64,000 bases of DNA from Nocardiopsis sp. MG754419 (GTDB taxonomy: Bacteria; Actinomycetota; Actinomycetes; Streptosporangiales; Streptosporangiaceae). Location: NCBI RefSeq assembly GCF_018207095.1, contig NZ_QOCZ01000024.1, positions 1 to 64,000 on the forward strand. The letters are read 5' to 3'. Numbering within the stretch: position 1 is the stretch's first letter; every line of letters begins with the position of its first letter. The translations under genes and the position numbers were made by a program. Below the pieces are notes generated by a model. The model was not told the DNA's origin. It saw nothing but the letters and a program-made list of their open reading frames with translations, and did not search any database. Positions 2,202 to 50,967 of the stretch are shown here, piece after piece.

Positions 2202-3632
2202 TCAGTTGTTCAGGGCGACGGCGTCGCCGAGGCGGTGCACCCGCAGGGAGTTGGTGGAACCGGTGGTTCCGGGCGGGCTGCCGGCGACGATGACGACCTT
2301 GTCGCCCTTGTGGTGGTCGCCGAGCCGCAGGAGCTCGCTCTCCACCTGGCGGACCATGTCGTCGGTGTTGTCGACCCAGGGCACCAGGTTGCTCTCCACA
2401 CCCCAGGTGAGGGAGAGCAGGCCACGCGTGCTGCCCTCGGTGGTGAAGGCCAGCAGCGGGATGGGCGAGCGGTAGCGGGCCAGACGCCGGGCGGTCTCAC
2501 CGGACATGGTGAAGGCGACGAGGGCCTTGGCTCCGACGGTCGCGCCGATCTCGGCCGCGGCACGGGCGATGGCGCCGCCCGTGGTCTCGGGCACCCGGTT
2601 GAGGATGTGCGAGGCGCGCAGGGACTCCTGCTCGGCGGCACCGACGATGCGCGCCATGGTCTCGACGGTCTCGATGGGGTACTGACCGACGCTGGTCTCA
2701 CCGGAGAGCATGACGGCGTCGGCACCGTCGAGGACGGCGTTGGCGACGTCGGAGGTCTCGGCGCGGGTCGGCCGGGGCGCCCCGATCATCGACTCCAGCA
2801 TCTGGGTGGCGACGATGACCGGCTTGGCCTTGTCGCGGCAGCGCTCGATGGCGCGCTTCTGCACCATCGGGACGTTCTCCAGGGGCAGCTCGACGCCCAG
2901 GTCGCCGCGGGCGACCATGACACCGTCGAAGACCTCGATGATGTCCTGGAGACGTTCGACGGCCTGGGGCTTCTCGATCTTGGCGATGAGGGGGACGGTG
3001 ATGCCCTCCTCGTCCATGATGCGGTGGCACTCCTCGGCGTCGGCGGGGCTGCGCACGAAGGAGAGGGCGACCATGTCGACGCCCTGGTGCAGGGCCCAGC
3101 GCAGGTCCTTCTCGTCCTTGTCGGTGAGCGCCGGAACGCTCACGGCGACGCCGGGGAGGTTGAGTCCCTTGTGGTTGGAGACGGTGCCGCCGAAGATGGC
3201 GCGGGTGAGGACGTCGGTGCTGGTGGTCTTGGTGCACTCCAGCACGACGCGGCCGTCGTCGATGAGGACGCGGTCACCGGGGCGTACGTCTCCGGGGAGT
3301 CCCTTGTAGGTCGTGGAGACCCTGTTCTGGTCTCCGGGGACGTCCTCGATGGTGATGGTGAACTCGTCTCCGGCGGCGAGTTCGATGGGTCCGTCGGGGA
3401 AGGTGCCCACACGGATCTTGGGGCCCTGGAGGTCGGCGAGGACGCCGACGGCTCGGTTGGCCTCCTGCGCGGCCTGCCGGAGATTGGCCAGGCTCGCGTG
3501 GTGGTCGTCGTGGGTTCCGTGGCTGAGGTTGAGGCGAGCGACGTCCAGTCCGGCGTCCACGAGGCGCCGGAGGGTCTCCGGGCTCGAGGTGGCGGGTCCG
3601 AGGGTCGCAACGATCTTTGCTCGACGTGTCAC
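2202..3632 (-). CDS. pyk: Pyruvate kinase
   Basis: Converts phosphoenolpyruvate and ADP to pyruvate and ATP, the last step of glycolysis. Full length for the family (476 aa). Seen: N-terminal RRAKIVATLGPA, RLNLSHG, the K-containing catalytic segment IAKIEKPQAV, the metal-binding MVARGDLGVELP, and the signature KPVIVATQMLESM. Two GTG starts are possible (3641 and 3632). I prefer 3632: it gives the usual TRRAKIV start, no ribosome-binding site precedes either, and a -10 hexamer TAAAGT lies 7 nt upstream of 3632, as in a leaderless mRNA. A dre-like palindrome overlaps the expected -35 region (separate entry). Monocistronic between two hairpins. Confidence 0.95.
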   Translation of the reverse strand: MTRRAKIVATLGPATSSPETLRRLVDAGLDVARLNLSHGTHDDHHASLANLRQAAQEANRAVGVLADLQGPKIRVGTFPDGPIELAAGDEFTITIEDVPGDQNRVSTTYKGLPGDVRPGDRVLIDDGRVVLECTKTTSTDVLTRAIFGGTVSNHKGLNLPGVAVSVPALTDKDEKDLRWALHQGVDMVALSFVRSPADAEECHRIMDEEGITVPLIAKIEKPQAVERLQDIIEVFDGVMVARGDLGVELPLENVPMVQKRAIERCRDKAKPVIVATQMLESMIGAPRPTRAETSDVANAVLDGADAVMLSGETSVGQYPIETVETMARIVGAAEQESLRASHILNRVPETTGGAIARAAAEIGATVGAKALVAFTMSGETARRLARYRSPIPLLAFTTEGSTRGLLSLTWGVESNLVPWVDNTDDMVRQVESELLRLGDHHKGDKVVIVAGSPPGTTGSTNSLRVHRLGDAVALNN

Positions 3633-3639
3633 GCCTATC

Positions 3640-3676
3640 ACTTTAGAGCGTCCGAGGGATGGAGTGGTCTAAACCA
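3640..3676 (-). promoter_or_regulatory. pyk leaderless promoter with DasR-type (dre-like) palindrome
   Basis: The -10 TAAAGT occupies 3645-3640 on the minus strand, 7 nt before GTG 3632. TGGTCTAAACCA at 3665-3676 matches 11 of 12 bases of the dre core TGGTCTAGACCA recognised by the GntR-family regulator DasR in Streptomyces, with both TGGT/ACCA half-sites perfect. It covers about -33 to -44, where a repressor would block RNA polymerase. The -35 hexamer is poor. Confidence 0.6.
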
Positions 3677-3844
3677 GGTTGCGAATGGACGTATGCGAGG
3701 TGGAGCGGGAGCGAACCCGATCACCCTGAGTGACGGTTCTCGGGCGTTGTGGGGACGGCCGGGAGGGGGTGGACCGGTGCCGGGGAGGGGTGTGTCATGG
3801 TCCGGTCCGTGGGCGTTTCGTGGACGGGTGAAGGGTGTGCGGTG

Positions 3845-4546
3845 GTGGAGCGTGGCGTGGTGATGGCCGCTCTGGCGGACGAGGTGACGGCGTTGGAGGA
3901 GGTCCTGCTCGGGCTGTCCGAGGACGAGGTGGTGCGGCCGACGCGGTGCGCGCCGTGGGATGTGGCGGCGCTCTCGGTGCACACGGTGGGGGCGCTCCAC
4001 CAGGTGAGCGTGACACTGGACACGGGGGCGGCGGACGCCGCCGCCCGACCGGTGTCGGCACCCGGGTACTACTCGCCGCGGGTGCGTTTCTCCCCCGAGG
4101 TGAACGGTGCGCGTGTCCGTGACGCCGCGGAGCGGGCGGCGCGACGACCGGACGCGGCCGAGCCGGGTCGGGTACTGGGAGTGCTCTGGTCGGCTCTGAG
4201 AGAGCGCGTGGCGCGCGAGCCGGAGGATCGCACGCTGGTGACCCGGCATGGTGATCCGATGCTGCTGACGGACTTCCTGACGACGCGGGTGACCGAACTG
4301 GTCCTGCACGGACTGGATCTGGCGGACGCCCTGGAGCGGAGGCCGTGGGTGTCCGACCGCGGCCTGGACCTGGTGCGGGAACTGCTGTTCGGTGCGGCCG
4401 ACCGGGCGGCGGTGCGCGCGGTACTGCCGGACGTGGAGGGCGCGGGCGCGCTGGAGGCGGTGCGCGTGGTGACGGGTCGTGCGTCGCGCCGTGTGGAGCG
4501 TGAGGCGCTGGAGGCCGCGGGGGTCCGGGTCCTGACGCTGGGGTGA
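3845..4546 (+). CDS. DinB-fold, mycothiol-dependent maleylpyruvate isomerase-like protein
   Basis: About 233 aa. The N-terminal four-helix segment contains WDVAALSVHTVGALHQV and a later RVTELVLHGLDLADAL. Histidines in these places form the metal site of the DinB/MDMPI fold, used in actinobacteria by mycothiol-dependent enzymes. The C-terminal part is a smaller basic/acidic domain. The specific reaction cannot be told. Start GTG 3845 (or 3842) is preceded by GAAGGG at 3830; the ATG at 3863 is an alternative. It converges on the next gene and shares a long bidirectional hairpin with it. Confidence 0.65.
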   Translation: MERGVVMAALADEVTALEEVLLGLSEDEVVRPTRCAPWDVAALSVHTVGALHQVSVTLDTGAADAAARPVSAPGYYSPRVRFSPEVNGARVRDAAERAARRPDAAEPGRVLGVLWSALRERVAREPEDRTLVTRHGDPMLLTDFLTTRVTELVLHGLDLADALERRPWVSDRGLDLVRELLFGAADRAAVRAVLPDVEGAGALEAVRVVTGRASRRVEREALEAAGVRVLTLG

Positions 4547-4607
4547 GCGCCGTGCGTACGGCGGGTGCCCGCGGCCGGCGTGGGTGAGATCACCTCGGGA
4601 GTGCGGC

Positions 4608-50427: not shown

Positions 50428-50733
50428 TCAGCGTGTGCGCGCCGCCTCCTGCTGGGCGACGTCGAGTCCGGCGCTGATGACGCTGTCCATGATGGCGGCG
50501 AGTCGGTCCGGACCCAGGCGGGGCGCGTGCTCGACCATCCGCTCCACCAGCAGGCGCTCGCGCTCCCGGTCCCGCCCGGCGAAGTAGCCGACCGGTTTGA
50601 TCCGCTGCACCTCGGCGGCGACCAGGGCGCGGCGTTCCAGGAGCGCGGCGAGTTCGGCGTCCATCGCGTCGATCCGGCCGCGCAGGTGGGCGAGGTGTTC
50701 GTCGTTCTGCCGCGGGGTGTGGCGGTCGTGCAC
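50428..50733 (-). CDS. Chorismate mutase, AroQ type
   Basis: 101 aa all-helical enzyme turning chorismate to prephenate for Phe and Tyr. Seen: LRGRIDAMDAELAALLERR, AAEVQRIKPV and GRDREREWards the GRDRERERLL helix, all matching the AroQ active-site Arg/Lys/Glu pattern. GTG 50733 follows GGAAGGGA by 8 nt. It is preceded by a leader ORF, four complementary arms and a terminator (separate entries), suggesting attenuation. Confidence 0.9.
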   Translation of the reverse strand: MHDRHTPRQNDEHLAHLRGRIDAMDAELAALLERRALVAAEVQRIKPVGYFAGRDRERERLLVERMVEHAPRLGPDRLAAIMDSVISAGLDVAQQEAARTR

Positions 50734-50803
50734 GGTGGGGTCCCTTCCTCGGTGTGTACGGGTGCGCGGAGCGGCCGTACGTCCCCGAGGCTCGGGTGCG
50801 GGG

Positions 50804-50910
50804 CGTCGGCCGCCCGAAAAAGCGAAAGAGCACCGGGCGGTGCCCGAGTGCTCTGTTGCCGACGTTCCCCTGGTTCCGCCTACGTGGAAGCGGCCGACGG
50901 GTCCGTCGGC
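50804..50910 (-). promoter_or_regulatory. Four mutually complementary arms in the chorismate mutase leader
   Basis: On the minus strand: arm 1 GCCGACGG (50910-50903), arm 2 CCGTCGGC (50900-50893), arm 3 CGTCGGC (50864-50858), arm 4 GCCGACG (50810-50804). Arms 1:2 form a hairpin overlapping the end of the leader ORF; 1:3 is an alternative; 3:4 flank the terminator. The set can take exclusive structures, as attenuators do. No pairing that directly breaks the terminator stem is obvious. Confidence 0.5.
50826..50854 (-). terminator. U-tailed hairpin upstream of chorismate mutase
   Basis: AGAGCAC/GTGCTCT and inner GGGC/GCCC stems (50827-50854), followed on the minus strand by TTCGCTTTTT. It lies 93 nt before the chorismate mutase start and 142 nt after the thioesterase stop. 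It could be an attenuator of the former or simply the terminator of the latter. Confidence 0.75.
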
Positions 50911-50939
50911 TCGCTAAACACGCGATAGCGGTGGGTCAT
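50880..50939 (-). CDS. Putative 19-aa leader peptide upstream of chorismate mutase
   Basis: ATG 50939 encodes MTHRYRVFSEPTDPSAAST. Tyr and Phe are read from TAT and TTT, codons almost absent from the neighbouring genes, and are the end products of the pathway the next gene feeds. -10 TACCAT (50952-50947) lies 7 nt before the ATG, so the mRNA would begin at this ORF. Its end overlaps the first arm pair. Not proven to be translated. Confidence 0.5.
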   Translation of the reverse strand: MTHRYRVFSEPTDPSAAST

Positions 50940-50953
50940 GGCGTCGATGGTAC

Positions 50954-50967
50954 CCGTTCCGGAACGG
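50954..50967. promoter_or_regulatory. Perfect 14-bp palindrome in the leader promoter
   Basis: CCGTTCCGGAACGG, 1 nt upstream of -10 TACCAT and inside the -35/-10 spacer. Position suits a repressor operator. It could alternatively be a weak hairpin after the thioesterase gene. Confidence 0.45.

Follow-up and report, generated by a model that had tools for sequence, protein, structure and literature searches.

The question raised by this locus is whether the short open reading frame (ORF) in front of a chorismate mutase gene of Nocardiopsis sp. MG754419 is the leader of a regulatory switch and, if it is, what the switch reads and in which direction it acts. Chorismate mutase commits chorismate to phenylalanine and tyrosine and sets the share of chorismate that goes to these two amino acids versus tryptophan. 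The initial annotation, made on the 64,000-nucleotide stretch of DNA that we call the window, had proposed a Tyr/Phe-sensing attenuator. In light of its conservation in about 20 actinomycete groups, the leader is very probably a real and previously undescribed control switch for phenylalanine and tyrosine synthesis. We think it probable that the leader attenuates transcription of the chorismate mutase gene in a translation-dependent way, according to the supply of charged Phe-tRNA and also, in most lineages, of Tyr-tRNA. The transcript would be leaderless and begin at the leader ATG, the position of the first ribosome while polymerase makes the arms would leave arm A1 paired with A2, paired with A3, or masked, and the state of A1 would decide whether the terminator forms ahead of chorismate mutase. 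In this scheme we infer the transcription start, the translation of the leader, the termination event and the Phe/Tyr signal.

The observation underlying the proposal was real. On the minus strand, a -10-like box, the leader ORF, the arms, a terminator, a 5' untranslated region (UTR) and the chorismate mutase gene follow one another from 5' to 3', and all of these elements recur in 34 Nocardiopsis loci. The -10-like hexamer TACCAT (positions 50947 to 50952 of the window) ends 7 nucleotides before the leader ATG, the leaderless spacing that had been described, and a leaderless transcript start is predicted at about 50939. The leader ORF itself (50880 to 50939), encoding the 19-codon peptide MTHRYRVFSEPTDPSAAST, has Tyr5 as TAT and Phe8 as TTT, and the peptide is conserved in the 34 Nocardiopsis loci and in other genera. 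Codons 3 and 4 contain CCGC (50928 to 50931), the 5' strand of a pairing, P0, whose 3' strand, GCGG (50876 to 50879), lies directly after the leader stop. Codons 7 and 8, GTGTTT (X1; 50916 to 50921), are the predicted antiterminator strand and can pair with GAGCAC in the 5' arm of the terminator. Arm A1, GCCGACG (50904 to 50910), can form a hairpin with A2, CGTCGGC (50893 to 50899), or a long-range pairing with A3, CGTCGGC (50858 to 50864), and A3, which lies 3 nucleotides 5' of the terminator stem, has A4 as a further possible partner. The intrinsic terminator, AGAGCACTCGGGCACCGCCCGGTGCTCT then TTCGCTTTTT (50816 to 50854), was located by a pattern scan that gave two overlapping matches versus 0.3 expected; its hairpin, with a T-rich tail, is separated from the leader ORF by 25 nucleotides. 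The chorismate mutase gene, encoding an AroQ type II enzyme (PF01817), occupies 50428 to 50733 and has a GTG start. Folding of the 215-nucleotide region was better than that of 200 shuffles (z = -4.5), and only one of the three leaderless-type short ORFs in the whole window, the one before chorismate mutase, carries the leader motif. Just 5' of the -10 box there is a perfect 14-bp palindrome, CCGTTCCGGAACGG (50954 to 50967), which is absent from the other Nocardiopsis loci read and is perhaps chance or a strain-specific operator.

The initial annotation had counted four arms with mutually exclusive pairings. The arms are present and conserved; the fourth, A4 (GGCGGCCGACGCC, containing GCCGACG; 50802 to 50814), lies after the U-tract and so cannot itself be the terminator 3' arm, and a fifth, A5 (ACGTACGGCCGC; 50771 to 50782), follows it in the 5' UTR. 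A4 is complementary to A3 and A2 and partly complementary to A5. Both arms (50771 to 50814) are conserved across Nocardiopsis, and the ability of A4 to pair with A2, A3 or A5 suggests a second step on the read-through transcript.

An alignment of relatives had been put forward as a check on the proposal, and in it the ORF and arms proved to be conserved. A chorismate mutase orthologue is present in 34 of 40 Nocardiopsis genomes, counting that of the window, and all 34 loci have the leader, the terminator, the same order, and the arms GCCGACG, CGTCGGC, CGTCGGC and GCCGACG, with single changes in A4 in a few. A1, A2 and A3 are invariant in this alignment, though paired drift would be possible, as is expected where arms exchange partners. 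Searching the Nocardiopsis genomes with a covariance model gave a single match to the element in each. One Nocardiopsis genome without a chorismate mutase match (G015) holds a degenerate leader (L072:1501-1635) that has no -10 box, carries TTC and stands directly before an endonuclease gene. This remnant is a natural deletion, and it suggests that retention of the leader depends on retention of the gene.

Outside the genus, a search of genome contigs with a single protein as the query returned no relatives, whereas an alignment query returned 66. Within the family, both the covariance model and the protein search turned up leaders ahead of standalone chorismate mutases. The unit lies upstream of standalone chorismate mutases and of fusions to a DAHP-synthase-like domain in many genera, with arms that have changed and been matched again; in the fusions, a PF00793 fragment is followed by PF01817, and the leader precedes the whole fusion gene. 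Loci were found in Streptosporangium, Planomonospora, Planobispora, Planotetraspora, Microbispora, Microtetraspora, Sphaerisporangium, Sphaerimonospora, Nonomuraea, Actinoallomurus, Actinomadura, Haloactinopolyspora, Jiangella and one Acidothermales metagenome-assembled genome. Of the 66 loci, 56 scored at E <= 0.1, and several of the remaining loci are on truncated contigs. One covariance model, R2, behaves almost as a sequence model because its automatic structure has only six pairs. We collected 110 distinct leaders, part of them by a motif scan that demanded Phe-x-x-Pro and a -10 box 5 to 9 nucleotides upstream. A TANNNT box lies 5 to 7 nucleotides before the start in all 110, a count conditioned by the scan, which allowed 5 to 9 nucleotides. 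All 110 also have a terminator-like hairpin (median, -21.75 kcal/mol). Comparison of the loci thus supports the conservation of the leader, the arms, the terminator and their linkage to the gene. At one standalone chorismate mutase (L096), the leader has lost its ORF but still has arm A3 and a terminator-like hairpin. In Jiangella, Haloactinopolyspora and relatives (L158 to L160 and L163 to L167), the leader MRTYLAFIEPARVAGRVEA precedes proteins that end in a chorismate mutase domain, with a T-poor terminator tail; the Jiangella proteins have a shorter N-terminal DAHP-synthase-like part or have lost it. One further candidate leader, L076, was rejected as chance.

Pairing was examined in 60 leaders, anchored by hand and compared with whole-strand shuffles, in which shared ancestry remains, so that the results are counts and not probabilities. 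For A1:A3, none of 2,000 shuffles reached the observed value, while within the other genera 212 of 2,000 did; most of the support thus comes from how Nocardiopsis differs from the other genera. A compensatory example is seen in L083 and L086, where A1 ends in CUUCGGG and A3 is CCCGAAG, versus CUCCGGG and CCCGGAG elsewhere. The A1:A2 pairing was likewise reached by 0 of 2,000 shuffles over the whole set of 60, without support within the other genera. P0, in which codons 2 to 5 pair with bases just past the stop, was reached by 0 of 2,000 outside Nocardiopsis. For codons 7 and 8 and the terminator 5' arm, the evidence of pairing is suggestive (29 of 2,000). For A2:A3, the antiterminator of a trp-type attenuator, the shuffle test gave no covariation support among the 60 leaders. 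The arms therefore do not fit a trp-type scheme, in which pairings 1:2 and 2:3 are exclusive and share arm 2, since A1:A3 is supported and A2:A3 is not; the shared arm is A1.

This arrangement bears directly on the sign of regulation. In RNA ending before the terminator 3' arm and free of ribosomes, A1:A3 was favored in 51 of 60 leaders, usually with codons 7 and 8 on the terminator arm. When a ribosome footprint was masked, the terminator arm was most free with the ribosome on codons 4 to 8 (A site at codons 4 to 7), whereas a ribosome at the stop, or none at all, left it most sequestered; this held in Nocardiopsis and in the other genera and for two footprint sizes. With the hairpin complete, the terminator prevails at equilibrium in every ribosome state, which makes full-length equilibrium folding with ribosome masks uninformative. 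Since the aromatic codons are on the predicted antiterminator strand or next to it, simple folding predicts that a ribosome stalled there would favor termination. Taken literally, the masked folding would be the inverse of trp attenuation, as predicted by a simple footprint model with sterics and kinetics outside it.

The strongest rival takes this prediction at its word. In it, an untranslated or fully translated leader would form A1:A3, with codons 7 and 8 on the terminator 5' arm, and give read-through, and a ribosome held on codons 4 to 8 would cover the antiterminator strand and cause termination; the holding signal might be a shortage of Phe- or Tyr-tRNA or a nascent-peptide arrest with the end product. 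The ribosome-free preference for A1:A3 before the terminator 3' arm exists speaks for this reading, as does the sequestration of the terminator arm, lowest with the A site at codons 4 to 7 and highest at the stop or without a ribosome. In an energy test, moreover, codons 7 and 8 paired better with their own terminator arm than with swapped ones in 5,000 of 5,000 permutations, although the test became weak when the leaders were collapsed to 21 types (259 of 2,000). For a biosynthetic enzyme, termination on a shortage of Phe or Tyr would be senseless, unless it is excess that causes the arrest, and the conserved residues past Phe8 mostly follow from the RNA arms, so that little is left over for a peptide that senses. 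The model also ignores that a ribosome at the stop, which masks A2, sits between A1 and A3 with, from the coordinates, about 0 to 9 nucleotides of slack. A1:A3 may be impossible there, in which case the replete state would terminate, as in the classical scheme. We consider this inverse reading unlikely overall. Its specific form, a widespread actinomycete attenuator with aromatic codons on the antiterminator strand, in which excess end product would halt the ribosome through the nascent peptide and give termination as feedback repression, seems to us more doubtful still.

A second caution against the literal inverse reading is that A1:A2 can form first during transcription. For the preferred attenuator, with slightly better than even confidence, we would expect shortage to give read-through; the inverse sign keeps a smaller share of our expectation, and neither sign the small rest. 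This expectation draws on physiology and on the precedent of aroR in Corynebacterium glutamicum, and our own folding does not support it. With the arms in this order, experiment can address the sign of regulation directly.

The identity of the signal was judged from the leader peptides. Phe8 is present in 110 of 110 leaders and is TTT in 107, in a scan conditioned on Phe. Tyr stands at codon 5 in 62 of 110 (Phe or Tyr in 58%), and Phe or Tyr stands at codon 6 in 52 of 110 (47%). Thus, of the two residues first proposed to be sensed, Phe is invariant and Tyr is common without being required. After Phe8, aromatic codons account for only 6 of 1,247 in the 110 leaders, and nearly all leaders carry only one to three Phe/Tyr codons. 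TAT and TTT are indeed rare nearby, as had been noted; eight nearby genes have 3 TAT versus 82 TAC and 1 TTT versus 99 TTC. The further argument that rare codons are the sensing signal is confounded, as Phe8 is mostly TTT but Phe6 is the common TTC in 37 of 37 leaders. Tyr5 is TAT in 56 of 62 and Tyr6 is TAC in 10 of 15. Codon choice is therefore specific to position, and RNA pairing probably fixes the rare TTT and TAT; the rare codons probably mirror RNA constraints at those positions and not a general preference for slow codons. Pairing with the terminator arm explains TTT at codon 8, the strongest of the rare-codon signals, at least as well, which counts against an attenuator. The preference for Phe/Tyr at codons 5 and 6, which are largely unpaired, is the argument for Phe/Tyr sensing. 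The R-Y-R of the window peptide brought to mind a macrolide-type arrest motif (+x+), which was rejected because relatives lack it.

If RNA constraint dominates, the arms might be a ligand-binding riboswitch or a protein-binding element, with the ORF a by-product of the RNA sequence. Most of the peptide conservation does coincide with paired arms, and the ilvB and leuA leaders of Streptomyces coelicolor, when their codons were changed, are reported not to behave as classical attenuators (PMC1262725). A purely RNA-based element would not explain why the frame, start, length (mostly 16 to 23 codons) and stop of the ORF persist as the arms change, why unpaired codons 5 and 6 prefer Phe/Tyr through different codons, or why Trp is added in the leaders of DAHP synthase genes, and it has no Rfam match; we regard it as improbable. 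The initial annotation had noted that the terminator could belong to the thioesterase gene, which is directly upstream on the same strand in 34 of 34 Nocardiopsis loci. The remaining alternative, that the terminator serves the thioesterase transcript and the ORF is incidental, is hardly credible, since no thioesterase was detected at the loci of other genera, where the upstream gene changes while leader, arms and terminator persist, and since the genome that has lost chorismate mutase has only a decayed leader (L072); the terminator goes with chorismate mutase.

Known systems offer functional parallels to the attenuator that we favor. The pheL leader of Escherichia coli has a run of Phe codons; the leader described here differs in its one to three Phe/Tyr codons, its leaderless-type ORF and its use of A1:A2 and A1:A3 instead of 1:2 and 2:3. 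The two are alike in that a leader with Phe codons stands ahead of a chorismate mutase, pheL preceding pheA (chorismate mutase-prephenate dehydratase; PMC11802643). The same source describes the aroR leader (Neshat et al. 2014), which carries Phe-Tyr-Phe upstream of aroF in a DAHP synthase operon of C. glutamicum, where Phe limitation raises expression and Tyr has no effect. By this description, aroR is also an actinobacterial Phe/Tyr leader that controls a gene of the aromatic pathway, and its Phe-only response recalls the invariant Phe8 and variable Tyr5; it differs in its gene (DAHP synthase rather than chorismate mutase), order and peptide. The leaderless trpL, leuL and ilvL leaders of Streptomyces (PMC8079986, PMC1262725) similarly combine a short leaderless ORF with a terminator in a high-GC actinomycete, but none of those listed precedes a chorismate mutase, and the list of attenuators for Streptomyces lividans has no chorismate mutase leader (PMC8079986). 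In the genomes covered by their actinobacterial survey, Seliverstov et al. reported no conserved RNA element at Phe/Tyr genes (PMC1262725). The ilvB1 attenuator of Mycobacterium tuberculosis (PMC13236596), which has experimental support, shares regulatory codons and competition between antiterminator and terminator in an actinobacterium; its codons are branched-chain ones, and a classical sign was proposed. The chorismate mutase leader thus resembles aroR and pheL functionally, and structurally it fails the trp-type test of a shared arm 2. A T-box or other known RNA family was rejected, as Rfam gave no gathering-score match in the window and permissive E-values yielded only chance-level microRNA and small RNA matches. 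A full-text search of freely available papers found no description of this leader.

Related leaders stand before DAHP synthase genes. In L162 (G319, reverse strand), the leader VTRSYRWFRQPAAEPVTSP, built like those of chorismate mutase, precedes an AroG-type DAHP synthase and has gained a Trp codon beside the conserved Phe. The window's own genome has a second leader type, MQRNFWRFYGYRPISPVACKALR (MQRNFWRFYGY...), before an AroF-type DAHP synthase, again with Trp. The addition of Trp in DAHP synthase leaders indicates that leader composition tracks the products of the downstream gene. A leader found in about 20 genera and refitted to fused chorismate mutases and, with Trp added, to DAHP synthase would show a general layer of control over aromatic synthesis in antibiotic-producing actinomycetes. 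The AroF-type leader was seen in L234 (G000:C418, about 203 nucleotides upstream of the match at 3542-4564 on the minus strand) and in L161 and L075, two loci rejected as leaders of the chorismate mutase type for this reason. Its aromatic residues are Phe, Trp, Phe, Tyr and Tyr, and from its sequence it is likely an attenuator that reads all three aromatic amino acids. It also has a leaderless-type TATAGT box and a GC-rich terminator.
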